The notes beneath the pieces are model-generated. The model searched no databases. It was given only the letters and a program-made list of their open reading frames with translations, and was not told where the DNA came from. DNA of 64,000 nt from Glycomyces albidus (lineage in GTDB: Bacteria > Actinomycetota > Actinomycetes > Mycobacteriales > Micromonosporaceae), in assembly GCF_009451885.1 (NCBI RefSeq), contig NZ_WIAO01000016.1, positions 1 through 64,000 of the forward strand, in the 5' to 3' direction. Below are positions 22,210-40,378 of the stretch, in pieces. Every line of letters begins with the position of its first letter. Position 1 is the stretch's first letter. The translations under genes and the position numbers were made by a program.

Positions 22210-22227
22210 ATACCGACCAGACGGTTT
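22210..22227. promoter_or_regulatory. operator-like site 1 of the catabolic island
   Basis: ATACCGACCAGACGGTTT is an imperfect palindrome found at four promoters in this island (also at 25419, 34952 and 40066 in this window). Here it lies 10 bp before the ATG of the first SDR, between it and the divergent NudK gene. The TetR gene two genes downstream is the natural candidate binder. Confidence 0.65.
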
Positions 22228-22236
22228 GGAGATCGC

Positions 22237-24547: not shown

Positions 24548-25368
24548 CCGGCCTGGCCGGGCGCGTCGCCATCGTGACCGGCGGCGCGCGCGGCATCGGC
24601 GAGGCGTACGTGCGCGCCCTGCACGCCGAAGGCGCGCACGTGGTCGTCGCCGACGTCCTTGCGGAGCAGGGGAAGGCGCTGGCCGACGAACTGAACGCCG
24701 CCGCTTCCGGTGCTGTGCCGCCTCACCGCCCCGGCGCTGCGGGCGGCGGTGCGATCGGGGCGCCGACCGGTCGCGGCCCGGCCGGCGGGCGTGCCCGCTT
24801 CTGCGAGCTCGACGTCACCGACGAGGCCGCCTGGGATCGGGTGGTCGCCGAGACGCTGGAGGCGTTCGGCGCAGTCGACGTGCTGGTCAACAATGCGGGG
24901 ATCGCGAACGCCGCGCCGATCGAGCACTTCACGCTCGCGAAGTGGAACGCGGTCGTGGCCGTGAACCTCACCGGGACCTTCCTCGGCTGCCGTGCCGTCG
25001 TCCCGGCGATGAAGGCCGCCGGGCGCGGATCGATCGTGAACGTGTCCTCAGTGGAAGGACTGCGCGGCAGCGAGCGCCTCCACGGCTACACCGCGACGAA
25101 GTTCGGCGTCCGAGGGCTCACGAAGTCCCTCGCCGTCGAGCTCGGACCCGACGGCATCCGGGTCAACTCGATCCACCCCGGCTTCATCGCGACCGACATG
25201 ACCACCCGCATCGACCCGTCCCGGCTCCAGATCCCGCTCGGCCGCCCCGGCGCGCCCGCGGACCTCGCCGGAGCCGTCGTCTTCCTCGCCGGGGACGCCT
25301 CGGCCTACCTCACCGGGACCGAGATCGTGGTCGACGGCGGGATGACCGTCGGCATACCCCACTCCTGA
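24544..25368 (+). CDS. short-chain dehydrogenase/reductase with Gly/Pro-rich insert
   Basis: A 274-aa SDR: TGGARGIGEAYV, NNAGIANA, VSSVEG, YTATKFG (Tyr-x-x-x-Lys) and LTGTEIVVDGGM. The GTG start overlaps the previous stop (GTGA). Unusually, residues about 52-80 insert a low-complexity Ala/Gly/Pro stretch (AAASGAVPPHRPGAAGGGAIG...) before the conserved ELDVTDEAAWD, lengthening the normal 245-aa fold. It probably acts on a hydroxyacyl-CoA in the same pathway as its neighbours. Confidence 0.88.
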   Translation: MTGLAGRVAIVTGGARGIGEAYVRALHAEGAHVVVADVLAEQGKALADELNAAASGAVPPHRPGAAGGGAIGAPTGRGPAGGRARFCELDVTDEAAWDRVVAETLEAFGAVDVLVNNAGIANAAPIEHFTLAKWNAVVAVNLTGTFLGCRAVVPAMKAAGRGSIVNVSSVEGLRGSERLHGYTATKFGVRGLTKSLAVELGPDGIRVNSIHPGFIATDMTTRIDPSRLQIPLGRPGAPADLAGAVVFLAGDASAYLTGTEIVVDGGMTVGIPHS

Positions 25369-25418
25369 GCAGCCGCAACACAGGCAACATATCGAAATGG
25401 ATTCACTGTCCTCAGCAC

Positions 25419-25436
25419 ATACCGTCCGGTCGGTAT
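25419..25436. promoter_or_regulatory. operator-like site 2 (upstream of the ABC importer operon)
   Basis: ATACCGTCCGGTCGGTAT is a near-perfect palindrome (8 of 9 half-site positions) located 49 bp before the first ABC transporter gene. It matches sites 1, 3 and 4. Confidence 0.7.
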
Positions 25437-25484
25437 CTGCGGTATGGTGGCTCTACTCCGACACGAAGAGGTGCGAGTACGACG

Positions 25485-26260
<776 letters not shown>

Positions 26261-26264
<4 letters not shown>

Positions 26265-26977
26265 GCGCCTTCGCCTTCCAGGACCTGACCGTCGGCTACG
26301 GCGACGGCGCCCCCGTGATCGACGGGCTCGGTCTCGACGTGGCCGAAGGCGCGGTCGTCGCGCTCCTCGGCGCGAACGGCGCCGGGAAGACCACGCTGCT
26401 GCGGGCCCTCGCCGGACTCGAACGCGTCCGCGGCGGCCGCATCCTCCTCGGCGGCCGCGACCTCACCGGCATGTCCGCCGAAGACCGCGTCCGGTGCGGG
26501 CTGTCGCTCGTGCCCGAAGGACGCAGCGTCGTCGTCGAACTCACCGTCGACGAGAACCTGCGCCTGGGCGGCCTGTGGCGGCACAAGCCGAAGGCCCGCA
26601 AGGCCGCCGTCGAAGCGATGTACGACCTGTTCCCGGCCCTCGACCGGCGCCGCCGCGCGGCCGGCCACACCCTCTCGGGCGGGGAGCGCCAGATGCTCGC
26701 GCTGGCCCGGGCGCTCCTCGCCCGCCCCGAGGTGCTGCTCCTGGACGAGCCCTCGCTCGGCTTGGCGCCCAAGGCGACCGCCCAGCTCCTCGGCGTGCTC
26801 CGGGAGACCGCCGCGCGCACCGGCCTCACGGTGCTCCTCGCCGAGCAGAACGTCACCGGCGCCCTGTCGGTGGCCCAGCGCGGCGTCGTGCTCTCCCTCG
26901 GCGCGGTCGTCGCCGACCGCCCCGCGGCAGAACTCGCCGCCGACCCCGCCCTCCGCCACGCCTACCTGGGGTTCTGA
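26261..26977 (+). CDS. Liv-type ABC transporter ATPase (LivF-like)
   Basis: A 238-aa second ATPase subunit. Walker A GANGAGKTT, a canonical signature LSGGERQMLALARAL, Walker B LLLLDEPSLGL and the LivF-specific LVPEGRSVVVELTVDENL. ATG overlaps the LivG stop. Its own stop overlaps another ATG (TGATGG) that is not the permease start, because about 430 bp of extra sequence lies before the permease. Confidence 0.95.
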
Positions 26978-27410
26978 TGGATCGACACCAAGACTTCCGC
27001 CCGCCCGTCCGCAACCGGCGCGGTACGGGGGCGCGCCTGCGCTTCCGCATCGCCTGCACGCCTGACCCGCTGCGGACCGGCGCGGCGGTGCCCGCCGCAC
27101 GCGCTCACGGGCCGGAGCCGCTGTCGCGTCCGCTCGCCGCGTGCGATCCGGTTGCGCCGCCGCCGGTTTCACCCTCGCATGCTGCGACTGTCGGCGCTCG
27201 ACGCGGTTCGAGAGCGCCGATGCGCCGCCGCGCGGCACTGAGCGGACTGAAGGCGACGTCGTGGCCGCTCGTCGCGGGCGTTTCAGTTCAGCCCCAGATG
27301 CCGCCGCCGCCGCGCCCCGCACCCGCCCGCGCCCGGCGCAGCCCGGCAGCGCTCATGCGCGGCTTCCATACAGCCGCAACGGTGCTCGGCCGAGGCTCGG
27401 AGGGGTGCTG
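26978..27410. other. 433-bp insertion-like spacer inside the transporter operon
   Basis: Elsewhere these transporter genes overlap, but here 433 bp separate LivF from the permease. The left edge (GGGGTTCTGATGGATCG, 26968-26984) and right edge (GGGGTGCTGATGGACCG, 27402-27418) match at 15 of 17 positions. One open frame crosses it from the ATG at 26977, giving an Arg/Pro/Ala-rich product with no recognisable domain that I do not accept as a gene. Confidence 0.55.
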
Positions 27411-28289
27411 ATGGACCGGTTCGTGTTCCTCTTCGCCGCCGGGCTCGCCCGCGGGGCCGTGCTCGCGCTGTTCGCGCTGTCGCTCGTGATCGTCTGGCGC
27501 ACCGCCAGAGTCGTGAACTTCGCGCAGGCCGCGATGGCCGCCGCCGCCGTCTACGCGGCGTTCGCGGTCACCGCCGCGACCGGCTCCTACTGGGCCGGGC
27601 TGCTCACCGGGCTCGCCGCCGGGGCGCTGCTCGGTGCGGCCGCCGAGCGCGGGCTCATGCGGCGCCTGCCGGCGCACGCGCCGCTGCCGGGGATCATCGT
27701 CGCGATCGGGCTCGTCATGGTCCTCCAGGCCGGGCTCGCGATCGCGTTCGGCCCCGAGCACCGGCCGATGCGCCCGCCGTTCTCGGAGCGGCCCTTCATC
27801 ATCGGCGGCGTCCCGGTGCTCTCCCCGAACGACCTGTTCACGCTCGCGGCCGCCGCCGCGGTCATGGCCGCGCTCGCGCTGCTGTTCAACCGGACCTCGC
27901 TCGGCCTCCAGCTCCGGGCCGCCGCGTTCGCCCCCGAGACCGCCCGGCTCCTCGGGGTCCGCGTGCCGCGCATGGTCACCCTCGGCTGGGCCCTGTCCGT
28001 CGCCGCCGCGTCCCTCGCCGCGCTGCTCCTGGTGCCCACCGAACTCGGGCTCAACCCGCACGCGGTCGACCTCCTGTTCGTGAACGCGTTCGCCGTCGCC
28101 GTCATCGGCGGCCTCGACTCGCCCGCCGGGGCGCTCCTCGCCGGGATCGGCGTCGGCCTCCTGGTCAGCCTCGTCACCGGGTACGTGTCGGCGTCGGCGG
28201 CCCCGCTCGCGGTGCTCGCGCTCATGACCCTCGTCCTGCTGGTCCGCCCCGGCGGCCTGCTCGCCCCGAAGGAGGCCAGGACCGCATGA
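27411..28289 (+). CDS. Liv-type ABC permease (LivH-like)
   Basis: A 292-aa membrane subunit with about eight helices. Family signatures are WRTARVVNFAQAAMAA (the LivH entry motif), AERGLMRRL, VIGGLDSPAGALLAGIGVGL and a carboxy-terminal LLVRPGGLLAPKE. The cytoplasmic loop LRAAAFAPETARLLGVRVPR is the coupling region. GGAGGGG lies 6 nt upstream of ATG. It overlaps LivM by 4 bp. Confidence 0.93.
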   Translation: MDRFVFLFAAGLARGAVLALFALSLVIVWRTARVVNFAQAAMAAAAVYAAFAVTAATGSYWAGLLTGLAAGALLGAAAERGLMRRLPAHAPLPGIIVAIGLVMVLQAGLAIAFGPEHRPMRPPFSERPFIIGGVPVLSPNDLFTLAAAAAVMAALALLFNRTSLGLQLRAAAFAPETARLLGVRVPRMVTLGWALSVAAASLAALLLVPTELGLNPHAVDLLFVNAFAVAVIGGLDSPAGALLAGIGVGLLVSLVTGYVSASAAPLAVLALMTLVLLVRPGGLLAPKEARTA

Positions 28290-29299
28290 GCACCCCCTTG
28301 CGCGCCTTGATCATCACCGTCCTCGCGATCGGCGGGACGTTCGGGCTCGACCCGTTCCGCAACTACCAGCTCGCCACCGCCGCCGCGTGCTTCGCGGCCG
28401 TCGCCGGGCTCACCGTCCTGGTCGGACTGACCGGGCAGCTCTCGCTCGGCCACGCCGTCCTCATGGCCGCCGGCGGGTACGGCTTCGCGTACGCCGCCTC
28501 GGCGGTCGAGGGGCCGTGGCCGCTCGCGCTGGCCGCGGGGCTCGCCGCCGCGGCGGCCGTCTCGGGGCTGCTGGGTCTGCTGCTCGGTGCGGCCGCGGCC
28601 CGGCTGCGCGGCCCGTACCTCGCGGGGCTCACCCTCGCGCTCGTCATCGCCCTGCCGGCGGCGGTGAACACGCTGCCGCTCGGCGGCGACCAGGGCGCCC
28701 GCGCCCCGTTTTTCCCGGTGCCCGAGGCGCTGTCGGCGCTCATCGCGGTCGAGCAGTGGCACGCGTGGCTCGCGATCGCCGTCGCCGCGGTCGCGGTGAC
28801 CCCGCTCGTGATGCTCCGCGCCGGGCGGGCCGGGCTGCGGATGCGCGCGGTCCTGGACGACGAGACCGCCTCCCGTCTGTCCGGTGTAGACCCTGGCGTG
28901 GTGAAGGCCGGCGCGTTCGCCGCCAGCGCCGTCCCGGCCGGGCTCGGCGGTGCGGTCCTGGCCATCGCGACCCAGCAGGTGACGCCCGGCGGGTACGGTC
29001 TGGCGTTCTCGCTGCTCCTCGTGGTCGCGGCCGTCGCCGGCGGGCTCGGCAGCATCGGCGGCGCGGCGATCGGGTCCGTCCTGGTGACCGTGCTGCCGTG
29101 GTTCATCGATGAGCTCGTGGCCGCTGCGCCCGCCGAGTTCGGGCAGCGCCTCGACGGGAATCTGGCCGTGCTGCTGTTCGGCGCCGGCCTCATCGCCTTG
29201 ACCACCGCCTGGCCGGGCGGCGCCGCGCGACTGCTCGACCGGCTCCGCGCCGCCCGGCCCCTCCGCTTCGCTACCCCTTCAACGACCACAGAGAGGTGA
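28286..29299 (+). CDS. Liv-type ABC permease (LivM-like)
   Basis: A 337-aa second permease. It has the LTGQLSLGHAVLMAAGGYGFAY motif of LivM, ARLRGPYLAGLTLAL, MRAVLDDETASRLSGVDPGVVKAGAFAASAVPAGLGGAVLA and GGLGSIGGAAIGSVLVTVLPWF. About nine membrane helices. Start overlaps LivH stop (ATGA); the binding-protein gene follows at once. Confidence 0.93.
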   Translation: MSTPLRALIITVLAIGGTFGLDPFRNYQLATAAACFAAVAGLTVLVGLTGQLSLGHAVLMAAGGYGFAYAASAVEGPWPLALAAGLAAAAAVSGLLGLLLGAAAARLRGPYLAGLTLALVIALPAAVNTLPLGGDQGARAPFFPVPEALSALIAVEQWHAWLAIAVAAVAVTPLVMLRAGRAGLRMRAVLDDETASRLSGVDPGVVKAGAFAASAVPAGLGGAVLAIATQQVTPGGYGLAFSLLLVVAAVAGGLGSIGGAAIGSVLVTVLPWFIDELVAAAPAEFGQRLDGNLAVLLFGAGLIALTTAWPGGAARLLDRLRAARPLRFATPSTTTER

Positions 29300-29304
29300 T
29301 CGGA

Positions 29305-30603
29305 ATGCGAACTCCCAGACCGTTCAAGAGCGGGACCTTCAAGAACGCGCCCTTCAAGAGCGCGGCCGCGATGGCCGCGGCGGCGGCCCTCGGCCTCGCC
29401 GCGTGCAGCACCCCCGGTGGCGGCGGCGAGTCCGTCCCGGGCGTCACCGACGACACCGTCACGATCGGCACGCACCAGCCGCTGACCGGCCCGGCCGCGG
29501 CCGGGTACTCGACGATCTCGGCCGCGACGGCCGCGTACTTCGAGTACGTGAACGCCAACGGCGGCATCAACGGCCGCGAGATCGAGTACGTCGTCAAGGA
29601 CGACGCGTACGACCCGGCCGCGACCCAGACCGTCGTGCGCGAACTGGTGACCGAGGAGAACGTGTTCGCGATCGTCAACGGCCTCGGCACCCCGACCCAC
29701 TCGTCGGTCCTCGACTACCTCGACCAGCAGGGCGTGCCGGACCTGTTCGTGTCCTCGGGGTCGCTGACGTGGAACCAGCCGAACGTCTACGACAACACGT
29801 TCGCGTTCAACGCCGACTACGCGACCGAGGGCGCGGCCCTCGCGCAGTACGCGGTCGACCAGGACGCGGACGCGGTGATCTGCGTCCTCGGCCAGGACGA
29901 CGACTACGGCGAGGGCATCATCGAGGGCGTCGAGACCGTGGTGGGCTCCAACGAGATCGCCGAGGTGCAGCGCTACTCGGTGTCCGCGGAGGACCTGACC
30001 GCGCAGATCGGCGCGATGAGCGCCGCCGGGTGCGAGGTGAACGTCCTCGGCACCATCAACGGCTTCACCGCGATGGCGGTGGGCACCGCGGCCCAGATGG
30101 AGTGGTTCCCGAAGTGGTACGTCTCGTCGTCGGGCGCGGACTACCCGACGCTCGCGGGCTACCTCGGCGAGGACCTCGCCCCGGCGCTGCTGCAGGGCAT
30201 GGTGAGCGTCAACTACCTGCCGTTCAGTCCCGACGGCGAATGGGTCGCCCTGTTCGAGGAGATCAACGCCGAGTACAACGACGGCGCCCCGTTCACCGGG
30301 AACACGGTGTTCGGCATGAGCGTCGGCTACCTGTTCGCGGAGGCCCTCGCCAAGGCCGGCGACGACCCGACCCGCGAGTCGCTCGTGGAGGCGGTCGAGT
30401 CCGGTGAGCTGGTGGGCAACGGGATCGTGCCGCTGTCGTTCAGCGAGGACGACCACGCGGCCTACCGGGCCGTCGGGGTCACGGTCGTGGACGGGGGCGT
30501 CCAGGACTACGTCGGCACCACCTATGAAGTGTCCGCGGGCCAGGTGGCCGCGGTCGAACCGAGCCCCGTTCCGCTGGAGAACGAGGGCATCCCGGGCGCC
30601 TAG
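29305..30603 (+). CDS. Liv-type ABC substrate-binding lipoprotein (LivK-like)
   Basis: A 432-aa exported binding protein. The lipobox LGLAAC places the lipidated Cys around residue 32. The ligand domain starts VTDDTVTIGTHQPLTGPAAAGYSTISAATAAYFEYVNANGGINGR, typical of peripheral-binding family 6. ATG 29305 is preferred (GAGAGG 8 nt upstream) over a GTG 9 nt earlier. A repeated FKSGTFKNAPFKS stretch lies in the signal region. The ligand is not evident; the neighbouring acyl-CoA genes suggest an organic acid rather than an amino acid. Confidence 0.92.
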   Translation: MRTPRPFKSGTFKNAPFKSAAAMAAAAALGLAACSTPGGGGESVPGVTDDTVTIGTHQPLTGPAAAGYSTISAATAAYFEYVNANGGINGREIEYVVKDDAYDPAATQTVVRELVTEENVFAIVNGLGTPTHSSVLDYLDQQGVPDLFVSSGSLTWNQPNVYDNTFAFNADYATEGAALAQYAVDQDADAVICVLGQDDDYGEGIIEGVETVVGSNEIAEVQRYSVSAEDLTAQIGAMSAAGCEVNVLGTINGFTAMAVGTAAQMEWFPKWYVSSSGADYPTLAGYLGEDLAPALLQGMVSVNYLPFSPDGEWVALFEEINAEYNDGAPFTGNTVFGMSVGYLFAEALAKAGDDPTRESLVEAVESGELVGNGIVPLSFSEDDHAAYRAVGVTVVDGGVQDYVGTTYEVSAGQVAAVEPSPVPLENEGIPGA

Positions 30604-30630
30604 CCCGCATCACCGAGGAGAAGGAGACCG

Positions 30631-31680
30631 ATGACCGACGTGGACGTGCCGGGGCTGGACGCGGCCGGGCTCGCCCGATGGCTGGCCCGGGAGCACCCCG
30701 ACCTGGCCGGGGAGGGCCCGCTGCGGGCCGCGCTCATCGACGGCGGCCGCTCGAACCTGACGTACCGCATCGACGGCGCGAAGGCGCCGCTGGTGCTGCG
30801 CCGGCCGCCGCTGGGGCACGCCCTGCCGACCGCGCACGACATGCGGCGCGAGCACCGGGTGATCTCGGCGCTCAAGGGCACCGTACCAGTCCCGGCCACA
30901 GTGGACGTCGTGGACGACACGGAGGCCGGGGAGGTCACCGGCACCGTCTTCTTCGTCATGGAGCACGTCGACGGCCAGGTCCTGGACCACCCGGACCGCA
31001 ACGCGGACTGGACGCCCGCCGGACTCCACCGCCTCGGCATCGAGGTCGCCGAGATCCTCGCCGACCTGCACGCCGCCGAGCCCGAACCGCTCGGGCTCGG
31101 CGGCTTCGGCCGGCCCGACGGGTACCTCGCCCGGCAGATGCGGACCTGGCGGCGCCAGCTCGACGCGTCCCGGTCCCGCGAGACCCCGGCCCTCGACGCG
31201 CTCGGCGGGCGCCTCGCCGCCGCCGTCCCCGCCTCGGGCCGGTCGGGGATCGTCCACGGCGACTACCGGCTCGACAACATGCTCGTCGCCGGGCCGCCCG
31301 CCGCGCCGCGCGTCGCCGCGGTCCTCGACTGGGAGATGGCCACCCTCGGCGACCCGCTCGTGGACCTCGGGATGCTCGGCATGTACTGGCACATCAGGGA
31401 ACTGCCCGGCGGCGAGCGGGCGGCCGGACCGATCGTCCCCGGCGCCGGCTACCCCGGGTTCGACGAGGTCGCCGACGCCTACGCCCACCGCGCCGGGACG
31501 CCCGTCCCGGACCTGCGCTGGTACCGGGCCTTCGCCTGCTACAAGCTCGCCGTCATCCTCGAAGGCGTCCACTACCGGTACACCAGGGGGCAGACCGTCG
31601 GCGAGGGATTCGATGCGATCGGCGCGCTCGTCGCGCCCCTGGCCGAGGAGGGCCTGTGGATTTCCGACCGGACGAGATGA
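30631..31680 (+). CDS. APH-like kinase of the ACAD10/11 amino-terminal type
   Basis: A 349-aa aminoglycoside-phosphotransferase-fold kinase. Features: nucleotide loop LIDGGRSNLTYRI, Lys in LVLRRPP region, catalytic loop IVHGDYRLDNMLV, and metal-binding DWEMATLGDPLVDLGML. This is the family fused to the dehydrogenase in mammalian ACAD10/11 and found as LvaA in Pseudomonas levulinate degradation, where it phosphorylates the 4-hydroxyl of a 4-hydroxyacyl-CoA. Its 3' end overlaps the next gene, an ACAD11-type dehydrogenase, by 25 bp, which strongly supports that joint role. Confidence 0.9.
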   Translation: MTDVDVPGLDAAGLARWLAREHPDLAGEGPLRAALIDGGRSNLTYRIDGAKAPLVLRRPPLGHALPTAHDMRREHRVISALKGTVPVPATVDVVDDTEAGEVTGTVFFVMEHVDGQVLDHPDRNADWTPAGLHRLGIEVAEILADLHAAEPEPLGLGGFGRPDGYLARQMRTWRRQLDASRSRETPALDALGGRLAAAVPASGRSGIVHGDYRLDNMLVAGPPAAPRVAAVLDWEMATLGDPLVDLGMLGMYWHIRELPGGERAAGPIVPGAGYPGFDEVADAYAHRAGTPVPDLRWYRAFACYKLAVILEGVHYRYTRGQTVGEGFDAIGALVAPLAEEGLWISDRTR

Positions 31681-32897
31681 CCCGCGCATTCGCCGACGAG
31701 GCCCGCGCGTTCCTCGACGAGCACGTGCTCCCCGCCGAGCCCGTCCTCGCCAAGCAGATCGCCGACACCCCCGGCGACTGGCGGGTGCGGCCCGTCGTGC
31801 GCGACCTCCAGGAGACCGCCCGCGACCGCGGCCTGTGGAACCTGTTCCTGCCGCCCGGCCCCCACGGGCTCGGCGGCGGCCTCTCCAACCTGCGGTACGC
31901 GCCCGTCGCCGAACTCACCGGCCGCAGCCCCCGGCTCGCCCCGGCCGCCATGAACTGCGCCGCCCCCGACACCGGCAACATGGAGCTCCTCGCCCACTTC
32001 GGCACCCCCGAGCAGCAGGAGACCTGGCTCGAACCGCTCCTGGACGCCCGCATCCGCTCCGCGTTCTGCATGACCGAGCCCGGCACCGCCTCCTCCGACG
32101 CCTCCCAGATCGGCACCCGCATCCACAAGGACGGGAGCGAATGGGTCGTCAACGGCACCAAGTGGTTCGCCACCGGCGCGATGAACCCCGACTGCACGCT
32201 CCTGATCGTCATGGGCAAGACCGACCCGAACGGGCCCCGCCACCGGCAGCAGTCCATGGTCCTCGTCCCGCGCGAGACGCCCGGCGTCACCGTCGTCCGG
32301 CCGCTCACCGTGCTCGGCTACGACGACCGCGACCACGGCGGCCACGCCGAGATCCGCTTCGACGACGTCCGCGTCCCCGCCGCGAACCTCCTCGGCGGCG
32401 CCGGCGACGGCTTCGCCATCGCGCAGGCCCGCCTCGGACCCGGCCGCATCCACCACTGCATGCGCGCCCTCGGCATGGCCGAACGCGCGCTCGACCTCGT
32501 CCGCGTCAGAGCCGCCGAGCGCGTCGCCTTCGGCGGGCCGCTCGCCCGCCAGGGCGTCGTCCGCGCCTGGGCCGCCGACGCCCGCGTCGAGATCGAGGCC
32601 CTGCGGCTCCTCGTCCTCAAGACCGCCTGGCTCATGGACACCGCCGGGAACCGCGCGGCCATGAAGGAGATCCAGGCGATCAAGGTCGCCGTCCCCCGCG
32701 CGGTCCAGCGCATCCTCGACCACGCCATCCAGCTGTTCGGCGCCGCGGGCCTCACCGAGGACCACCCGCTCGCCGAGATGTTCGCCGCCGCCCGGGCCCT
32801 GCGCCTCGCCGACGGCCCCGACGAAGTGCATGTCGCCGCCCTCGGCAAAGCCGAACTGGCGGTACCGTCATCCGAATTGGAAGGAGTCGTGCAATGA
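31656..32897 (+). CDS. ACAD10/11-type acyl-CoA dehydrogenase
   Basis: A 413-aa flavoenzyme of the ACAD11 subgroup. Diagnostic stretches are AFCMTEPGTASSDASQI, VNGTKWFATGAMNPDC, RHRQQSMVLVPRETPGV, LGPGRIHHCMRALGMAERAL and RLADGPDEVHVAALGKAEL. In that subgroup the enzyme removes phosphate from 4-phosphoacyl-CoA and rearranges it to a 3-hydroxyacyl-CoA able to enter beta-oxidation. GTG 31656 (MDFRPDEM) follows GAGGAGGG and gives the usual start; an ATG at 31677 is possible. It overlaps the kinase by 25 bp and the ligase by 4 bp. Confidence 0.9.
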   Translation: MDFRPDEMTRAFADEARAFLDEHVLPAEPVLAKQIADTPGDWRVRPVVRDLQETARDRGLWNLFLPPGPHGLGGGLSNLRYAPVAELTGRSPRLAPAAMNCAAPDTGNMELLAHFGTPEQQETWLEPLLDARIRSAFCMTEPGTASSDASQIGTRIHKDGSEWVVNGTKWFATGAMNPDCTLLIVMGKTDPNGPRHRQQSMVLVPRETPGVTVVRPLTVLGYDDRDHGGHAEIRFDDVRVPAANLLGGAGDGFAIAQARLGPGRIHHCMRALGMAERALDLVRVRAAERVAFGGPLARQGVVRAWAADARVEIEALRLLVLKTAWLMDTAGNRAAMKEIQAIKVAVPRAVQRILDHAIQLFGAAGLTEDHPLAEMFAAARALRLADGPDEVHVAALGKAELAVPSSELEGVVQ

Positions 32898-34486
32898 CGC
32901 ACCGCCCCGGCTCGACCGACCCCGCGATCGACGGCCCCGGCCACGGGACCCTCTCCATCGCGGCCATCCTCGCCGACACCGCCCGCCGCACACCGGACGC
33001 CCCGGCCCTGCACTTCATGGGCCGCACCACCGCCTACGGCGAACTGTGGGACCAGACCCGCGCCTACGCCGGGGCGCTCGCCGCCCGCGGCATCGGCCGC
33101 GGCTCGCGCGTCGCCATGATCGTCCCCAACGTCCCCGACTTCCCCCGCGTCTACTACGCGGCGCTGGCCCTCGGCGCCGTGGTCGTCCCGATCCACCTGC
33201 TGTTCAAGGCCGACGAGATCGCGTTCGTCCTCGAGGACTCCGGCGCCGACCTGCTCGTGGCGGCCGCGCCGCTCCTGGCCGAGGCCGCCCCGGCCGCGGC
33301 CCGGACGGGCACCCCCCTCACGACGGTCCTCGCGCCCGAGGGCCTGGAGGTAGGCGGCGCGCCCGTGCCGAGGCTCGAAGCCGAAGCGGCGCAGGCCGAA
33401 CCGATCGAGCGGTACGCGTCGGTGAACCCGCTCGACGCCGCCACGGTCCTGTACACCTCGGGCACCACCGGGACCCCGAAAGGCGCGGTCGGCTCGCACC
33501 TGGCGATGATCGAGCAGGTCCACGTCTCGCTCATCGACTCGTTCCCGCTGCTGCGCGAGGACGTGGTGTACGGCGGGCTGCCGTTCTTCCACTCCTTCGG
33601 GCAGATGGCGGTGCTCAACATCGCGTTCCGGCGCGGGGCGTCGATCATCCTGCTGCCGAAGTTCGACCCCGACGAGGCGCTGGCGCTCCTCGTCCGGCAC
33701 GGCGGGACCGTGTTCACCGCGGTGCCCACGAACTACGCCGGCATGGTCGAGGCCGCGAAGCGCACCGCCGAGCGGCCGCCGCTGCGGTACGCCGTCTCCG
33801 GCGGCGCGGCCCTGCCGGTGGCGCTCCTGGAGGCGTTCGAGGAGGCGTACGGCGCGCAGGTCCACGAAGGGTACGGGCTCACCGAGACCGCGCCGTCGTG
33901 CACGTTCAACATGGTCGGCGAGCCGATCCGGCCCGGGACCGTCGGCACCCCGATCTGGGGCGTCGACGTCGCCGTGGCCGACCCCGACGTCGAGGACCGG
34001 ATCGTCCTCCTGGGAACCGACGTGCTCGGCGAGATCGTGGTGCGCGGCCACAACCTCATGAAGGGCTACCTCGGCCGGCCCGACGCCACCGCCGAGGCCG
34101 TCGTGGACGGCTGGTTCCGCACCGGCGACCTCGGGACCGTCGGCGCCGACGGCGTGGTCCGCATCGTCGACCGCAAGAAGGACATGATCATCCGCAACGG
34201 CTACAACGTGTACCCGACCGAGGTCGAGGCCGTCCTCGCCCGCCACCCGCACGTCTCCATCGCCGCCGTGTTCGGCGTCCCCCACGACACGCACGGCCAG
34301 GAGGTCCACGCCGCGGTGGTCCCGGCCCAGGGAGCGAGCGTCGACGCGGCCGAAGTCGTCGCGTACATGAAGGAGAAGGTCGCCGCGTTCAAGTACCCTC
34401 GGGTCGTGCACGTGGTCGACGAGCTCCCGCTCGGGGCGAGCGGGAAGGTCCTCAAGCGCGAACTGGTGAAGCAGTTCGCGCCCTAG
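32894..34486 (+). CDS. acyl-CoA synthetase (AMP-forming), FadD-like
   Basis: A 530-aa ANL-family ligase that activates a carboxylic acid to its CoA thioester. It carries the P-loop TVLYTSGTTGTPKGAV, the adenylate motif VHEGYGLTETAPS, WFRTGDLGTVGADG, the hinge RIVDRKKDMIIRNGYNVYPTEVE and the catalytic Lys in GASGKVLKREL. AAGGAG lies 7 nt before the ATG, which overlaps the ACAD stop. It probably performs the first intracellular step on the acid imported by the Liv-type transporter. Confidence 0.95.
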   Translation: MTHRPGSTDPAIDGPGHGTLSIAAILADTARRTPDAPALHFMGRTTAYGELWDQTRAYAGALAARGIGRGSRVAMIVPNVPDFPRVYYAALALGAVVVPIHLLFKADEIAFVLEDSGADLLVAAAPLLAEAAPAAARTGTPLTTVLAPEGLEVGGAPVPRLEAEAAQAEPIERYASVNPLDAATVLYTSGTTGTPKGAVGSHLAMIEQVHVSLIDSFPLLREDVVYGGLPFFHSFGQMAVLNIAFRRGASIILLPKFDPDEALALLVRHGGTVFTAVPTNYAGMVEAAKRTAERPPLRYAVSGGAALPVALLEAFEEAYGAQVHEGYGLTETAPSCTFNMVGEPIRPGTVGTPIWGVDVAVADPDVEDRIVLLGTDVLGEIVVRGHNLMKGYLGRPDATAEAVVDGWFRTGDLGTVGADGVVRIVDRKKDMIIRNGYNVYPTEVEAVLARHPHVSIAAVFGVPHDTHGQEVHAAVVPAQGASVDAAEVVAYMKEKVAAFKYPRVVHVVDELPLGASGKVLKRELVKQFAP

Positions 34487-34905
34487 ACGGCCTCGCCGAT
34501 CCGCAGCTCCGCCTCGACGGCGGCGCGGACCGGCGCGGGCACCGGCACCGGGCGGCGCCCGGCGCGGTCCACGAACACGTGCGTGAACCGCCCCAGCGCG
34601 AGCGGCGCGGCCCGGCCGGGCCCGCCCTCGCGCAGGATCGCCAGGTCCCACGTGATCGAGGTGGTCCCGAGGCGGGCCACCGCGATGTCCACTTCCAGGA
34701 CCTCCGGGAACGAGGCGGGCGCCAGGAACTCGCACGACGAGGCCCGGGCCAGCCCGATCACGTCCCCGGCCGGGTCCAGGCCGGCGCGGCGCATCATCCA
34801 GGTGTTCACCGCCGAGTCCATCGCCTCGTAGTACACGGTGTTGTTCATATGGCCGTACTGGTCGTTGTCGTTCCAGCGCAGCGGGAACGGATGGCGGTTC
34901 GTCAC
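34483..34905 (-). CDS. acyl-CoA thioesterase, YbgC/4HBT hotdog family
   Basis: A 140-aa hotdog-fold enzyme. The active-site segment is RWNDNDQYGHMNNTVYYEAMDSAV, with the Asp of NDQYGHMNN as the catalytic residue, followed by ASSCEFLAPASFPEVLEVDIAVARLG. It hydrolyses acyl-CoA, likely to recover CoA from stalled intermediates. GTG 34905 follows GAAGGAGA; an ATG at 34938 is less likely. Its stop overlaps the ligase stop (convergent), and its promoter region is shared with the divergent acyl-CoA dehydrogenase, including operator site 3. Confidence 0.9.
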   Translation of the reverse strand: MTNRHPFPLRWNDNDQYGHMNNTVYYEAMDSAVNTWMMRRAGLDPAGDVIGLARASSCEFLAPASFPEVLEVDIAVARLGTTSITWDLAILREGGPGRAAPLALGRFTHVFVDRAGRRPVPVPAPVRAAVEAELRIGEAV

Positions 34906-34936: not shown

Positions 34937-36139
34937 ATGCATCCTAATCACAAACCGACCGGTCGGTCCAACCGGCTGGAGTCCGACTTCTACTCGTTCC
35001 AAGACCTGCTCACCCCCGTCGAGCAGGACGCCGCACTCCGCATCCGCGACTTCATGGAACGCGAGGTCCGGCCCATCGCCGACGACTACTGGGAACGCGC
35101 CGAGTTCCCCTACCACCTCATCCCCGGCATCGCCGAGACCGGCGTCATCGGCACCATGTGGCCCGAATCCGCGCGCTTCCCCAACAGCGCCCTCTTCCGC
35201 GGCTGGGCCGCCCTCGAACTCGCCCGCGTCGACGCCTCCTTCGCCACCTTCGTCGGCGTCACCTCCGGCCTCGCCATGGGCGCCATCGGCGTCGGCGGCA
35301 CCGACGCCCAGCGCGCCGAATGGCTCCCGCCCATGGGCCGCGGCGAGATCATCGGCGCGTTCGGCCTCACCGAGCCCCTCGCCGGCTCCGACACCGCCCG
35401 CGGCCTGCGCACCACCGCCGCCCGCACCGGCGACACCTGGGTCCTCAACGGCGCCAAACGCTGGATCGGCAACGCCACCTTCGCCGACGTCACCGTCATC
35501 CTCGCCAAGGACACCGCCGACGACCAGGTCAAAGCCTTCCTCGTCCGCAAGGACGCGCCCGGGTTCACCGCCACCAAGATGGAACGCAAGCAGTCCCTGC
35601 GCGGCGTCCAGAACGCCGACATCACCCTCGAGGACGTCGAAGTCCCCGAGACCGACCGCCTCCAGCGCATCGACTCGTTCAAAGACCTCGCCGGCGTCCT
35701 CGGCCCCACCCGCGTCGGCGTCGCCTGGGAGGCCATGGGCATCGCCGCCGGCGCCTACGAGGCCGCCCTCCGGTACGCCGGCGAACGCGAGCAGTTCGGC
35801 AGGCCCATCGCCAAGTTCCAGCTCGTCCAGCAGAAACTCGCCGACTCCGTCGCCGACCTCACCGCCGGCATCGCCGTCTGCGTCCGCGCCTCCCAACTCG
35901 AAGAGGCCGGCACCCGCGGCGACGCCCAGGCCTCCATGGCCAAGGCGTTCTGCACCGCCCGCATGCGAGCGGTCGTCGCCCGCTGCCGCGAGATCCTCGG
36001 CGGCAACGGCATCCTCCTCGACCGCGGCGTCGCCCGCTTCTTCGCCGACGCCGAGGCCGTCTACTCGTACGAAGGCACCCGCGACATGAACACCCTGATC
36101 GTCGGCCGGGCGATCACCGGACACCAGGCATTCGTGTGA
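34937..36139 (+). CDS. acyl-CoA dehydrogenase, glutaryl-CoA dehydrogenase-like
   Basis: A 400-aa flavoenzyme: FGLTEPLAGSDTARGLRTTA, RWIGNATFADVTVI, REQFGRPIAKFQLVQQKLAD and the catalytic-base motif YEGTRDMNTLIVGRAITGHQAF. It would make the alpha-beta double bond in beta-oxidation, possibly on a shortened or branched substrate, complementing the ACAD11-type enzyme. The ATG 34937 has GCAGGGGG upstream. Operator site 3 lies inside codons 6-11, so either repression works from within the coding start or translation begins differently. Confidence 0.92.
   Translation: MHPNHKPTGRSNRLESDFYSFQDLLTPVEQDAALRIRDFMEREVRPIADDYWERAEFPYHLIPGIAETGVIGTMWPESARFPNSALFRGWAALELARVDASFATFVGVTSGLAMGAIGVGGTDAQRAEWLPPMGRGEIIGAFGLTEPLAGSDTARGLRTTAARTGDTWVLNGAKRWIGNATFADVTVILAKDTADDQVKAFLVRKDAPGFTATKMERKQSLRGVQNADITLEDVEVPETDRLQRIDSFKDLAGVLGPTRVGVAWEAMGIAAGAYEAALRYAGEREQFGRPIAKFQLVQQKLADSVADLTAGIAVCVRASQLEEAGTRGDAQASMAKAFCTARMRAVVARCREILGGNGILLDRGVARFFADAEAVYSYEGTRDMNTLIVGRAITGHQAFV
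34952..34969. promoter_or_regulatory. operator-like site 3 (inside the start of the acyl-CoA dehydrogenase gene)
   Basis: The core ACCGACCGGTCGGT (34954-34967) is a perfect 14-bp palindrome and the best copy of the island motif. It lies between the divergent thioesterase and dehydrogenase genes, but within the first codons of the latter. Confidence 0.7.
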
Positions 36140-36150
36140 AAGGAACCGAC

Positions 36151-37374
36151 ATGACCGAGGCCTACGTCATCGCCACCGCGCGCTCCCCGATCGGCCGCGC
36201 CCGCAAGGGGTCCCTCAAGGACGCCCGCGCCGACGACCTCGCCGCCCAGATGATCCGCGCCGCCGTCGACAAGGTCCCCGGGCTCGACCCCGACCGCATC
36301 GACGACCTCCTCCTCGGCTGCGGCATGCCCGGCGGCCGGCAGGGCATGAACATGGCGCGCATCGTCGCCGTCATGCTCGGCTGGGACACCGTCCCCGGCG
36401 CCACCGTCACCCGCTACTGCTCCTCCAGCCTCCAGACCACCCGCATGGCCTTCCACGCCATCAAGGCCGGCGAAGGCGACCTGTTCGTCTCCGCCGGCGT
36501 CGAATCGGTCTCCGGCATGGACATCGGCTCCAGCGACGCCATCCCCGGCGCCGACCTCGAGAACCCCGTCTTCGCCGACGCCGTCTCCCGCACCTCGAAA
36601 CGCGCCGGCGGCGCCGACCCCGGCTGGACCGACCCGCGCGAGGACGGCCTCCTGCCCGACCCGTACATCGCCATGGGCCAGACCGCCGAGAACGTCGCCG
36701 CCCTGCGCGGCATCACCCGCGACGAGCAGGACGCCTACGCCGCCCGCAGCCAGCAGCGCGCCGAACGCGCCATCGCCGAAGGCTTCTGGGCCAAGGACAT
36801 CACGCCCGTCACCCTCGCGGACGGCACCATCGTCACCGCCGACGACGGCCCCCGCCCCGGCACCACCGCCGCGGCGCTCGCCGGCCTCGACCCCGTGTTC
36901 CGTCCGAACGGGACGGTCACCGCCGGGAACGCGTGCCCCCTCAACGACGGCGCCGCCGCCGTCGTCGTCGCCTCCGACCGCCTCGTCGCCGAACTCGGCC
37001 TGGACCCGATCGCGAGGATCGTCTCGACCGGCGTCAGCGGGCTCTCCCCGGAGATCATGGGCCTCGGCCCGGTCGAGGCGTCCCGGCGCGCACTCGCGCT
37101 GGCGGGCATGGAGATCGGCGACATGGACCTGGTGGAGATCAACGAGGCGTTCGCGGCCCAGGTGATCCCGTCCGCGCGGGACCTCGGGGTCGACGAGGAC
37201 CGGTTGAACGTCAAGGGCGGCGCGATCGCGGTCGGGCACCCGTTCGGGATGACCGGGGCGCGGATCACGTCGACGCTGCTGAACGCCTTGGAGGACACCG
37301 GCGGGCGGTACGGCCTGGAGGCGATGTGCGTCGGCGGCGGGCAGGGCATGGCGATGGTGCTCGAACGGCTCTGA
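36151..37374 (+). CDS. thiolase (acetyl-CoA acyltransferase, FadA-like)
   Basis: A 407-aa thiolase that cleaves 3-ketoacyl-CoA to acetyl- or propionyl-CoA. The acyl-binding Cys is in VTRYCSSSLQTTRMA, and the activating His and Cys are in GGAIAVGHPFGMTGAR and CVGGGQGMAMVLE. NEAFAAQVIPSARDL is also present. GAAAGGA lies 8 nt before the ATG, 11 bp after the dehydrogenase stop. It completes the beta-oxidation set of this island. Confidence 0.95.
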   Translation: MTEAYVIATARSPIGRARKGSLKDARADDLAAQMIRAAVDKVPGLDPDRIDDLLLGCGMPGGRQGMNMARIVAVMLGWDTVPGATVTRYCSSSLQTTRMAFHAIKAGEGDLFVSAGVESVSGMDIGSSDAIPGADLENPVFADAVSRTSKRAGGADPGWTDPREDGLLPDPYIAMGQTAENVAALRGITRDEQDAYAARSQQRAERAIAEGFWAKDITPVTLADGTIVTADDGPRPGTTAAALAGLDPVFRPNGTVTAGNACPLNDGAAAVVVASDRLVAELGLDPIARIVSTGVSGLSPEIMGLGPVEASRRALALAGMEIGDMDLVEINEAFAAQVIPSARDLGVDEDRLNVKGGAIAVGHPFGMTGARITSTLLNALEDTGGRYGLEAMCVGGGQGMAMVLERL

Positions 37375-37712: not shown

Positions 37713-38174
37713 CTACTCGGGGACGTAGAGGGTGATGGTCCGGGCGACGAGCGCGGGCTTCGCGCCGCCTTCGATCTCCACGGTCACGTCGTATCCGGCG
37801 CGCACGCCGCGGGCGGTCTCCTCGACCGACGCGAGTTCGACGGCCGCCCGGACGCGGGCGCCGGCGGGGACGGGCTGGAGGAACCGGAGCCGGTCGAGCC
37901 CGTAGTTGACGGACATGGCGAGCCCGCCGATCGCGATGAGCCCCTCCAGGAGCCGGGGGAGGAGCGACAGGGTGAGGTAGCCGTGGGCGATCGGCCCGCC
38001 GAAGGGACCGGCGGCGGCGCGCTCGGGGTCGGTGTGGATCCACTGGTGGTCGCCGGTGGCGTCGGCGAACGCGTCGATGCGGTCCTGGTCGACCGCGAAC
38101 CAGTCGCCGGTCGCCCTGGCGCCCAGGGCGTCCCCGAGGTCCGCGGGGGAGGCGGCGGTGATCGGGCCGGTCAT
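37713..38174 (-). CDS. MaoC-like (R)-enoyl-CoA hydratase
   Basis: A 153-aa hotdog dehydratase. The catalytic region DRIDAFADATGDHQWIHTDPERA contains the conserved Asp and His, followed by PFGGPIAHGYLTLSLLPRLL. It would hydrate a 2-enoyl-CoA, filling the step for which no crotonase gene is seen in the island. It overlaps the preceding SDR by 4 bp and is followed by a strong terminator. Confidence 0.92.
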   Translation of the reverse strand: MTGPITAASPADLGDALGARATGDWFAVDQDRIDAFADATGDHQWIHTDPERAAAGPFGGPIAHGYLTLSLLPRLLEGLIAIGGLAMSVNYGLDRLRFLQPVPAGARVRAAVELASVEETARGVRAGYDVTVEIEGGAKPALVARTITLYVPE

Positions 38175-38923
38175 GCCTTCGGCCCTCCCGCGACGTACAG
38201 GACCTGGCCGGAGACGAACCCCGCGTCCTCGGAGCAGAAGTAGGCGACCGCGGCGGCGACGTCCTCGGGCTTGCCGACGCGGCCGACCGGGGTCTCCTTG
38301 GCGGCGTGGGCGAGGAAGTCCTCGAAGGGGACACCGATGCGCTCGGCGGTGGCCCGCGTCATGTCGGTCTCGATGAACCCGGGCGCGACGGCGTTCGCGG
38401 TGATCCCGAACTTGCCGAGTTCGATCGCGAGGGTCTTGGTGAGCCCCTGCATGCCGGCCTTCGCGGCGGCGTAGTTGGCCTGGCCGCGGTTGCCGAGCGC
38501 GGAAGTGCTGGAGAGGTTGACGATCCGGCCCCAGCCCGCGTCCACCATGGACGACTGGACGGCGCGGCTCATGAGGAAGGCGCCGCGCAGGTGGACGGCG
38601 AGGACCGCGTCCCAGTCGTCGGCGCTCATCTTGAACAGCAGGTTGTCGCGGAGGATCCCGGCGTTGTTGACGAGGATCTGGGGCGGGCCGAGCTCGGCGG
38701 TCACGCGCTCGACGGCGGCCGCGGCGGCGGCCTCGTCGGCGACGTCGGCGCCGACGCCGATCGCCTTGCCGCCCTGGGCGTTGATGGCGTCGGCGGTGGC
38801 GCGGGCCTGCTCCTCGGCGAGGTCGAGGACGGCGACGGCGTGCCCGTCCGCGGCGAGGCGGCGGGCCGTGGCGGCCCCGATGCCGCGCGCGGCGCCGGTG
38901 ACGATGGCGGTCCTTGCGGTCAT
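38171..38923 (-). CDS. FabG/PhaB-like short-chain dehydrogenase
   Basis: A 250-aa SDR: VTGAARGIGAATARRL, ILVNNAGILRDNLLFKM, NLSSTSALGNRGQANYAAAKAGM (Ser, Tyr-x-x-x-Lys) and APGFIETDMTRA. The sequence is close to 3-oxoacyl-ACP/CoA reductase types, so it is a good candidate for the 3-hydroxyacyl-CoA dehydrogenase step next to the MaoC hydratase (ATGA overlap). It lies 21 bp downstream of the alcohol dehydrogenase gene in one leftward operon. Confidence 0.93.
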   Translation of the reverse strand: MTARTAIVTGAARGIGAATARRLAADGHAVAVLDLAEEQARATADAINAQGGKAIGVGADVADEAAAAAAVERVTAELGPPQILVNNAGILRDNLLFKMSADDWDAVLAVHLRGAFLMSRAVQSSMVDAGWGRIVNLSSTSALGNRGQANYAAAKAGMQGLTKTLAIELGKFGITANAVAPGFIETDMTRATAERIGVPFEDFLAHAAKETPVGRVGKPEDVAAAVAYFCSEDAGFVSGQVLYVAGGPKA

Positions 38924-38944: not shown

Positions 38945-40033
38945 TCAGAACACGATGAGCTGGCGCAGTGCCTCGCCGGCGGCGAGGCGGTCGAGGGCGG
39001 CCGGGAGGCCGTCGAGGCCGATCCTGTCGGAGACGAGCCGGTCGAGCGGGAGCCGCCCGGCGCGCCAGAGTCCGGCGTAGCGGGGGACGTCGTCGCCGGG
39101 GACGGCAGAACCGAGGTAGGAGCCGACGACCGTGCGGGCCTCGGCGGTCAGCAGCAGCGGCGACACCGCGGCGCGCGCGTCGGGGTGCGGCAGGCCGACG
39201 GTGACGGTGGTGCCGCCGGGCGCGGTGAGCGCGAACGCGGTCTCGAACGCCCCGGCCGACCCGGCCGCCTCGACCACCACGGGGGCGCGGAGGCCGGCGG
39301 CCTCGCCGGGAGTGCGGGCCTCGGCGCCGAGCGAACGCGCGAGGTCGAGCTTAGCCGGGACGGTGTCGACGCCGACCACCTTGTGGCCCAGCGCCTGCGC
39401 GACGAGGAGTGCGGCCATGCCGACGCCGCCGAGACCGACGACGGCCACCGTCTCGCCCTCGTTCGGCCTGCCCGCGTTGACGACCGCGCCGCCGCCGGTG
39501 AGCACCGCGCATCCGAGGAGCGCGGCGATCTCGGGCGGCACGTCGTCCTCGACCGGCACCACCGAGCGCTCGGAGACCACCGCGTGCGTCGCGAACGCGC
39601 TGACGCCGAGGTGGTGGGCGACCGGCGTACCGCCGCGGCTGATCCTGACGGCGCCGCCGACGAGGGTCCCGGCGGCGTTCGCGGCGCTGCCGACCTCGCA
39701 GGGGAGCCGCCCGTGCGTCCCGCACGCCGCGCATTCCCCGCAGCGCGGCAGGAACGTCAGGACCACGCGGCGCCCGACTGCGGTCGCGGTGCCGGGCCCG
39801 GCCGCTTCGACGATGCCGGCGGCCTCGTGGCCCAGGAGCATCGGGACCGGCCGGACCCGGCTGCCGTCGACGACCGAGAGGTCCGAGTGGCACAGCCCCG
39901 CGGCCTCGACGCGGACGAGCAGCTCGCCCGGGCCGGGCCCGTCAAGGTCCAAGGGCCCCACGGTGATCGGCCTCGACTCGGCGTACGGCGCGGGCGCCCC
40001 GCACCGCTCGAGTACGGCTCCGGTGATCTCCAC
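38945..40033 (-). CDS. zinc-dependent alcohol dehydrogenase (MDR family)
   Basis: A 362-aa enzyme with both zinc sites: catalytic Cys/His in AGLCHSDLSVV and GHEAAGIVEAAG, structural cysteines in CGECAACGTHGRLPCE, and cofactor motif VVGLGGVGMAALL. It would oxidise a primary or secondary alcohol, possibly feeding an aldehyde or ketone into the pathway. It is the first gene of the leftward operon and has operator site 4 at 33-50 bp upstream. Confidence 0.92.
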   Translation of the reverse strand: MEITGAVLERCGAPAPYAESRPITVGPLDLDGPGPGELLVRVEAAGLCHSDLSVVDGSRVRPVPMLLGHEAAGIVEAAGPGTATAVGRRVVLTFLPRCGECAACGTHGRLPCEVGSAANAAGTLVGGAVRISRGGTPVAHHLGVSAFATHAVVSERSVVPVEDDVPPEIAALLGCAVLTGGGAVVNAGRPNEGETVAVVGLGGVGMAALLVAQALGHKVVGVDTVPAKLDLARSLGAEARTPGEAAGLRAPVVVEAAGSAGAFETAFALTAPGGTTVTVGLPHPDARAAVSPLLLTAEARTVVGSYLGSAVPGDDVPRYAGLWRAGRLPLDRLVSDRIGLDGLPAALDRLAAGEALRQLIVF

Positions 40034-40065
40034 GCCGACCTCCTCGTCGTCAGGTTCCGCTCAGC

Positions 40066-40083
40066 ATACCGACTGGACGGTTT
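40066..40083. promoter_or_regulatory. operator-like site 4 (upstream of the alcohol dehydrogenase operon)
   Basis: ATACCGACTGGACGGTTT differs from site 1 at two positions only (ATACCGACCAGACGGTTT). It marks the promoter of the leftward ADH-SDR-MaoC operon and so extends the presumed regulon to 18 kb. Confidence 0.65.
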
Positions 40084-40378
40084 GCGGTGCTACCCCGGCG
40101 CGCGGCAGTTTGAACTCGAGCGGGGAGGTCGCGGTCCGCGCGTCGCCCGAGCCGGATGCGTGTCGATCCCGGGCGGTCGCGTCTCGAACCCTGGCGGCCG
40201 CGTTTCGAGACGGCCGGCCCGACCCGCCTCGGTGGATATTCGACCCGACCGGCCCGGGCTCCGGCAGAACCGCACCGCGAACCTCGCCTGCGGCTGTTGG
40301 GACACCAGCGGCGCAGTCGCTGTGGGAATTCGCACAATAAGATGCACTGAGTGCATCGTTGCATCTAGTGTAAGCGAC
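40084..40378. other. intergenic region upstream of the TetR/MMPL pair
   Basis: The left part (40084-40270) is GC-rich with imperfect repeats of the GCGTNTCGANNC type. The right part (40320-40378) is AT-richer and promoter-like, with TGTGGGAATTCGCACA (40321-40336, near-palindrome) and the palindrome at 40342. No gene is supported. Confidence 0.5.
40342..40356. promoter_or_regulatory. palindromic operator upstream of TetR/MMPL genes
   Basis: ATGCACT-G-AGTGCAT is a perfect 15-bp palindrome 22 bp before the TetR start, overlapping a TAAGAT -10-like hexamer. The half-site partly repeats just downstream (TTGCATCTAGTG). Autoregulation by the adjacent TetR protein is likely. Confidence 0.6.

Follow-up and report, generated by a model that had tools for sequence, protein, structure and literature searches.

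The closest described counterparts of the system reported here are the mammalian ACAD10 and ACAD11 proteins, in which a kinase and a dehydrogenase domain are fused (available text of PMC12440821 and PMC11342911), and the levulinate operon lvaABCDE of Pseudomonas putida KT2440, which joins a kinase, a dehydrogenase, a ligase and a short-chain dehydrogenase (SDR) in one logic (Rand 2017, as described in the available text of PMC6692424, PMC11342911 and PMC12440821). The levulinate cluster of Pseudomonas citronellolis LA18T, as presented in the accessible part of PMC6692424, has a kinase, an LvaC-like dehydrogenase and an SDR, and no lvaB homologue was found in it. Here we analyse the first 64,000 nucleotides of contig NZ_WIAO01000016.1 of Glycomyces albidus (the window), where a kinase gene (KIN), a dehydrogenase gene (ACD1) and an acyl-CoA ligase gene (LIG) lie within an island of 18 genes at 22237-40033. 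KIN and ACD1 are recognisable from their sequences as the bacterial version of the two enzymes for 4-hydroxy fatty acid use in mammals, and we consider it likely that the whole island is a dedicated catabolic unit for an acid that carries, or yields, a 4-hydroxy or 4-oxo group.

The likeness to the mammalian proteins extends to the catalytic and phosphate-site residues; the two domains are fused there, whereas here two overlapping genes encode them, within an island that has an importer and a shared palindrome. Likeness to the P. putida operon was judged by the described gene roles; relative to it, the island has no lvaB, has a TetR-type in place of the LvaR-type regulator, and adds a Liv-type importer, an extra dehydrogenase, a thiolase, a MaoC protein, MDR proteins and a thioesterase. 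The P. citronellolis cluster contains a histidine-phosphatase gene, and its regulator and ligase context differ (same part of PMC6692424). Two proteobacterial plasmids, Bosea pB32-2 and Aminobacter pSR7, also carry a KIN-family kinase, an acyl-CoA dehydrogenase (55% identical to ACD1 in pB32-2), an SDR and a Liv-type importer, but these loci are distant (33% for the Aminobacter kinase) and have other neighbours. The chemistry is known, and the importer-bearing, apparently co-regulated actinobacterial setting is apparently new; a partial literature search by title and abstract start, which is weak evidence of absence, found no description of the island or its operator.

Genes were called with a codon-usage model and domains assigned by Pfam profile matches, in a genome of 5.76 Mb on 88 contigs. 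The three central genes are as follows.

30631..31680, forward strand: KIN, an ACAD10/11-type (LvaA-like) APH-fold kinase whose catalytic positions hold D211 and N216.
31656..32897, forward strand: ACD1, an ACAD11-type (LvaC-like) dehydrogenase with R259, HCMR at 267-270 and D386.
32894..34486, forward strand: LIG, an AMP-forming acyl-CoA ligase with the Pfam domains AMP-binding and AMP-binding_C.

KIN and ACD1 overlap by 25 bp (the ACD1 ATG is at 31656) and ACD1 and LIG by 4 bp; KIN matches the APH profile with 159 bits, and ACD1 contains the N, M and C domains of acyl-CoA dehydrogenases. The initial annotation had described just such a kinase and dehydrogenase with a 25-bp overlap, an overlapping ligase behind them, a Liv-type importer directly upstream (25485-30603) and thiolase, MaoC and SDR neighbours; the gene calls and Pfam matches agree on every one of these, and place a thioesterase and a second dehydrogenase beside the downstream neighbours. 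The trio is present as described at 30631..34486, but that interval is too short for the unit, which runs from 22237 to 40033.

When ACD1 was compared with all solved structures, human ACAD11 came first (423 bits, 52% identity over 389 residues), followed by two mouse ACAD11 entries (415-417 bits) and 4hr3, a putative acyl-CoA dehydrogenase (403 bits), and the next match reached 150 bits. KIN behaved in the same manner, with 9o56 (194 bits), 3dxp (177 bits) and two mouse ACAD11 entries (160-163 bits) well ahead of the next match (45 bits). The genome has 33 stretches matching APH but one ACAD11-type dehydrogenase, ACD1, whose next relative in the same genome scores 115 bits; the closest named relative by ACD1 is Glycomyces sp. 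NRRL B-16210 (86%). A quick maximum-likelihood tree of 111 rows split 103 ACAD11-type proteins, the window and the mammals included, from 8 other acyl-CoA dehydrogenases (ACADs) with an SH-aLRT of 100, against an outgroup that is narrow (three fragments from the window's genome and five copies of ACD2, the island's second dehydrogenase) and sits on very long branches. The tree carries a long-branch warning near the mammals, and what is drawn from it here is limited to the 103/8 split and to close groupings with support. Because they duplicate L064, L065, L071 and L066, the loci L050, L051, L053 and L055 do not enter the tree or the motif counts, while the identical L060 and L122 were both kept; the tree also excludes proteins with an internal stop or fewer than 330 residues, the kinase alignment those with an internal stop, and alignment A1 the loci L061, L062 and L071. 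The proposal that the dehydrogenase is of clear ACAD11 type is thereby borne out, by the structure scores (423 versus 150 bits), by a tree in which ACD1 does not group with the ordinary acyl-CoA dehydrogenases of that 8-row outgroup, and by its Arg/His/Arg/Asp residues.

In mouse ACAD11, according to the available text of PMC12440821, R626, H634 and R637 sit beside the catalytic D753, nonconservative changes of these three residues impair the dehydrogenase step most, and H597 has a partial effect; D220 and N225 are the kinase residues named. Mapping through alignments (residue numbers in the structure chain are one lower than in the paper) equates mouse H597, R626, R631, H634, R637 and D753 with H230, R259, R264, H267, R270 and D386 of ACD1, which has, as do ACAD10/11, the catalytic Asp replacing Glu (D386), the H267-C-M-R270 motif and the upstream R259. 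R626, H634, M636, R637 and D753 are invariant in all 103 ACAD11-type rows and occur in none of the 8 other ACADs, whose aligned base position (ACD2 included) holds Glu in seven and Ala in one; R631, as expected, is common to all rows of both kinds. On the kinase side, R168, D211 and N216 of KIN correspond to mouse R176, D220 and N225 and do not vary in any of the 87 rows, so that KIN has the catalytic Asp and Asn of the APH/PKL family together with the conserved substrate-region Arg. Mouse R86 has no unambiguous match in KIN, and an Arg beside the alpha-C Glu (R73) is conserved. By analogy with the LvaA/LvaC and ACAD10/11 mechanism (available text of PMC11342911 and PMC12440821), the conversion of a 4-hydroxyacyl-CoA to a 2-enoyl-CoA by KIN and ACD1 is well supported as a prediction.

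The initial annotation saw no LvaB-like small protein, and this holds within the island: KIN starts 27 bp behind the binding-protein gene with no LvaB-type gene next to it, and no small gene can lie between KIN and ACD1 because the two overlap. DUF6285, a domain that we take to be LvaB-like, has no match in the window's genome and is listed in none of nine annotated plasmid regions examined. The missing LvaB is no obstacle to this interpretation, since no homologue was found in the P. citronellolis cluster either and recombinant ACAD10/11 work without it (available text of PMC6692424 and PMC12440821, respectively).

With the ligase and dehydrogenase of the trio counted in, the island holds, besides KIN, the Liv-type importer, a ligase, two dehydrogenases, a thiolase, a MaoC protein, a thioesterase, a TetR-type regulator, three SDRs and two MDR oxidoreductases. 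Its other genes are listed here.

22237..22977, forward strand: SDR0, a short-chain dehydrogenase whose best solved relatives are DHRS4 (170 bits).
22990..23574, forward strand: TetR1, of the TetR family (TetR_C_24), the probable island regulator.
23567..24547, forward strand: ADHq, an MDR protein like quinone oxidoreductases and enoyl reductases (best solved relatives quinone-oxidoreductase-like MDR, 187 bits).
24544..25368, forward strand: SDR1, a short-chain dehydrogenase (best NCBIfam match trans-4-hydroxycyclohexanecarboxylate dehydrogenase, 241 bits against a cut-off of 400).
25485..26264, forward strand: a LivG-type ABC ATPase.
26261..26977, forward strand: a LivF-type ABC ATPase.
27405..28289, forward strand: a LivH-type permease, start uncertain (earliest 27141).
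28286..29299, forward strand: a LivM-type permease.
29305..30603, forward strand: the substrate-binding protein (SBP), Peripla_BP_6.
34483..34905, reverse strand: TE, a 4HBT hotdog thioesterase.
34937..36139, forward strand: ACD2, an ordinary acyl-CoA dehydrogenase, not ACAD11-type.
36136..37374, forward strand: THIO, a thiolase.
37713..38174, reverse strand: MAOC, a MaoC-type hydratase.
38171..38923, reverse strand: SDR2, a FabG-like dehydrogenase.
38945..40033, reverse strand: ADHn, a zinc alcohol dehydrogenase.

From this content we infer the following order of activities. The Liv-type ABC importer would take up a carboxylic acid with a 4-hydroxy or 4-oxo group, or else an acid that gives one after shortening or lactone opening; the island would in this way consume a gamma-hydroxy acid, a gamma-keto acid or a lactone. 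LIG would form the CoA ester, and an SDR or MDR enzyme would set the oxidation state at C4; one of the three SDRs may hold the LvaD role (4-oxoacyl-CoA reduction). KIN would then phosphorylate the 4-hydroxyl of the 4-hydroxyacyl-CoA, and ACD1, with Asp386 as base, Arg259, His267 and Arg270 as phosphate site and a redox-active FAD, would expel the phosphate to give the 2-enoyl-CoA with no net oxidation. Hydration, oxidation and thiolysis would fall to MAOC, SDR2 and THIO, and further turns of beta-oxidation to ACD2. TetR1 would repress the units through the palindrome CATACCG-n6-CGGTATG, with the compound or its CoA ester as the inducer that releases it.

The conservation of the island was followed by searching 19 window proteins with tblastn in 100 loci, 80 of them named (the best 80 of 586 relatives, with some genomes represented twice), which reach at most 10 kb from the dehydrogenase and so cut off some outer genes. 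The recurring blocks are SDR0-TetR1-ADHq-SDR1, LivG-LivF-LivH-LivM-SBP, KIN-ACD1-LIG, TE, ACD2-THIO and ADHn-SDR2-MAOC. KIN, ACD1, SBP and ACD2 occur together in 30 of these best 80 named loci, from 11 genera: Microbacterium (7), Glycomyces and Cellulomonas (4 each), Promicromonospora, Isoptericola and Agromyces (3 each), Demequina (2), and Krasilnikoviella, Kineosporia, Cellulosimicrobium and Nesterenkonia (1 each). LivG, LivF and THIO were found in all 30 and LIG, TE, SDR2 and MAOC in 29 each; the remaining counts are 28 (SDR1), 24 (ADHn), 23 (ADHq), 21 (TetR1) and 17 (SDR0). For the other 50 named loci the counts are 46 (KIN), 22 (SDR0), 18 (ADHq), 17 each (TetR1 and MAOC) and 14 (SDR2).

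A KIN orthologue (77-100%) was found in 12 of the 16 genomes searched within the genus, and in one genome of another genus at 78%; for the rest of the family the matches listed reach at most 56%, and KIN-like genes, weak matches included (E<=0.001), occur in 133 of 150 family genomes. The island itself is patchy, because SBP at E<=1e-120 was found in the window's own genome alone among 149 genomes drawn across the phylum. The Glycomycetaceae dehydrogenases group together (SH-aLRT 94%) and join those of Promicromonospora in a clade of 16 rows (98%), and three Promicromonospora loci have the importer, kinase, dehydrogenase and ligase in the same order as the window; horizontal transfer of the island between Glycomycetaceae and Promicromonospora would be the simplest reading of this clade and matching gene order. 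A Glycomyces relative without a KIN orthologue (G139) retains, between NUDIX and TetR2-MMPL, only LIG (80%) and MAOC (81%), in what is apparently an internal collapse of the island. The remnant lies at positions 3932-6850 of L192 (G139:C285:116500-128500).

Three copies of an operator-like palindrome, each with one mismatch to CATACCG-n6-CGGTATG, precede the units of the window.

22209..22228, forward strand: operator palindrome before SDR0-TetR1-ADHq-SDR1.
25418..25437, forward strand: operator palindrome before the Liv-kinase-dehydrogenase-ligase run.
40065..40084, forward strand: operator palindrome before ADHn-SDR2-MAOC.

Among exact shared palindromes upstream of island genes, TACCG-n6-CGGTA was the commonest overall (56 occurrences); it stands upstream of ADHn (22 of 34 loci), KIN (14 of 40), LivG (13 of 38) and SDR0 (3 of 25). 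The longer form, with two mismatches or fewer, was counted in the window segment and 39 hand-chosen island loci, the same loci from which it had been derived, and gave 123 sites, 122 of them outside the mapped island genes and one within a gene; the counts after block shuffling, done three times, were 0, 3 and 2. The 122 sites precede LivG (37), ADHn (29), KIN (24), SDR0 (21), ACD2/TE (8) and SDR2 (3). Four of the six free middle bases, which were not part of the search pattern, are also conserved (per half, C in 83% and C/T in 72/28%). In the window, five matches at three mismatches compare with 1.63 expected, a count reached by 2 of 100 shuffles.

Two tests speak for a function of the palindrome, at the level of sequence: the way in which it follows rearrangements of the kinase gene, and its co-occurrence with TetR1. 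All 23 loci in which KIN faces away from the importer have a separate site for it, as does one locus without an importer gene (24/24, from related loci that are not 24 independent events). Of the 16 loci in which KIN lies behind the importer on the same strand only 1 has such a site, which falls within the binding-protein gene. In the window KIN follows the importer genes and has no site of its own; it would be controlled through the site at 25418. In 57 other loci, the only outside test, several of which hold island parts and among which kinship inflates the association, the palindrome is present in 17 of 18 with a TetR1 homologue (at least 35% identity over 120 residues) versus 10 of 39 without (Fisher p 1e-6, kinship uncorrected). 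The 26 of these other loci that have both kinase and palindrome place the site 18-172 bp before the kinase in 15 cases and elsewhere in 11. Since the palindrome accompanies TetR1 in 17 of 18, TetR1 is the likely regulator of the island units, which appear to be switched by one repressor. TetR2 (40379-41014) is unlikely to be the island regulator: it stays with the MMPL gene both in G139, which keeps two island genes, and in G142, where none was found within 12.5 kb. In Micrococcales a TetR_C_36 gene (locus L084) may be a second regulator.

A scan of the whole genome gave six sites, three of them within the island, against two for a backward-pattern control. One of the others, with one mismatch, lies about 45-65 bp before a gene of the succinic-semialdehyde-dehydrogenase type (C4:71246; in L157 (G000:C4) the site is at 3183 and the gene at 3247-4623); this gene was considered as an aldehyde dehydrogenase that the island itself lacks, but was rejected as a regulon member, the gene being present in 6 of 22 genus genomes and the other five upstream regions showing at least 4 mismatches. 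Two more sites with one mismatch, one upstream of a sulfotransferase gene on C15 and one within an MFS gene on C88, were treated as chance. A related palindrome, AAACCGAC-n2-GTCGGTTT, stands beside a gene of 560-572 codons in several Glycomyces genomes (L167, L168 and L169, that is G000:C29, G099:C21 and G049:C14) and is perhaps another TetR operator.

Several points weigh against a catabolic island for 4-hydroxy or 4-oxo acids under TetR1 control, beyond the shared origin of palindrome and counts and the kinship in the outside test. The exact palindrome is not the top motif for SDR0 (3/25), 10 loci have the palindrome but no recognised TetR1, and binding by TetR1 is deduced from co-occurrence. 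The regulators in and beside the island are TetR-type, with no LvaR-type regulator found there and no lvaB either. As to the substrate, LIG reached no cut-off among 25 of 109 ligase models, and the solved relatives of SBP are weak (70 bits) and uninformative. Nine further groups of open reading frames (ORFs) recur near the island and may include further functions, such as a lactonase or a monooxygenase; five are in or near the TE-ACD2 stretch in Micrococcales, and the one group identified, a TetR, is the TetR_C_36 gene mentioned above. An orphan SBP paralogue of the window's genome (70% identical; positions 8785-10056 of L194, G000:C3), which lies beside an inositol catabolism cluster, was no help as a substrate clue.

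The rival explanations that propose levulinate, hydroxy fatty acids or a cyclic acyl-CoA differ mainly in the substrate and are compatible with a 4-hydroxy- or 4-oxo-acid island. Tentatively, the island could serve hydroxy-fatty-acid or lipid-peroxidation salvage, in which long hydroxy acids (for example from plant cutin) would be shortened by ACD2, MAOC, SDR2 and THIO until the hydroxyl stands at C4, where KIN and ACD1 would remove it. The presence of a second dehydrogenase, a hydratase and a thiolase, the abundance of KIN-like genes in the family, the DHRS4-type relatives of SDR0 and the recurrence of KIN-ACD1 with homologues of SDR0 (22/50) and ADHq (18/50) outside the island set all suit this proposal. 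Liv-type importers, however, usually transport small polar or aromatic acids, and the island is rare, with SBP in one of 149 phylum genomes. An evolutionary reading, which we regard as speculative and rather unlikely, is that TetR1, SDR0, ADHq, KIN and ACD1 with the operator would form an old actinobacterial regulon for 4-oxo and 4-hydroxy carbonyls (such as 4-hydroxy- and 4-oxo-alkenals and acids), with DHRS4-like and enoyl-reductase-like enzymes attached, and would be what the ACAD11 route is in mammals; genes for import, CoA ligation and beta-oxidation would have joined this core later, giving a transferable island that lives on a plant-derived hydroxy acid or lactone.

That the island is an actinobacterial levulinate (4-oxovalerate) operon, the functional equal of Pseudomonas lvaABCDE, seems doubtful. 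The enzyme classes are the same (ligase, SDR, kinase and ACAD11-type dehydrogenase), MAOC, SDR2 and THIO could turn a C5 enoyl-CoA into acetyl- and propionyl-CoA, and lvaB is likewise not found in the P. citronellolis cluster as given in the accessible part of PMC6692424; a C5 acid, however, should not call for ACD2 in addition to ACD1, for a pair of MDR proteins and for as many as three SDRs, the regulator is TetR-type rather than LvaR-type, and nothing found indicates C5. It is similarly improbable that KIN and ACD1 act on another or cyclic acyl-CoA, such as an intermediate of alicyclic, terpenoid or aromatic degradation. The NCBIfam match of SDR1 to trans-4-hydroxycyclohexanecarboxylate dehydrogenase points in this direction, as do weaker matches of SDR2 (200 of 431 bits) and ADHn (79 of 339) to cyclohexane-carboxyl-type dehydrogenases, although all are below cut-off and such matches are common in SDRs; the ACAD11 phosphate-site residues, on the other hand, are invariant in 103 rows, as expected for unchanged chemistry, with which a ring-bearing 4-hydroxyacyl-CoA would still fit. 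That KIN is an unrelated small-molecule kinase next to a standard beta-oxidation cluster, with no function in common, is strongly disfavoured and very improbable. The abundance of APH domains in the genome would suit such a reading; against it stand the structure matches of KIN and ACD1, the 25-bp overlap, the conserved adjacency and gene orders, the shared palindrome, the invariant residues and the distance of KIN from the resistance kinases (30 bits with the best NCBIfam model, cut-off 390).

Three observations lie outside the island. On a plasmid of Streptomyces sp. NBC_00388 (L144, 7853-17508), a kinase/ACAD11-type pair lies beside AfsA-like and ketosynthase genes that resemble those of gamma-butyrolactone signal biosynthesis. 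In the window, one long gene at 18476-21196 encodes a penicillin-amidase domain together with an Acetyltransf_8 (GNAT) domain, a combination that looks unusual, and a CHAT-domain protein, a TPR protein and two proteins without a Pfam match are encoded in a row at 45240-50633.

Assignment of 4-hydroxy-acid chemistry to the ACAD10/11 type is recent (2017-2025) and comes from a pseudomonad operon and from mammals. The separate-gene, importer-equipped and apparently TetR-switched version described here spans actinobacterial orders; it offers stand-alone enzymes for structural work and, through induction, a route to the natural substrates of this chemistry, and the predicted operator and regulator might be made into a biosensor that responds to 4-hydroxy acids or to the corresponding CoA esters.

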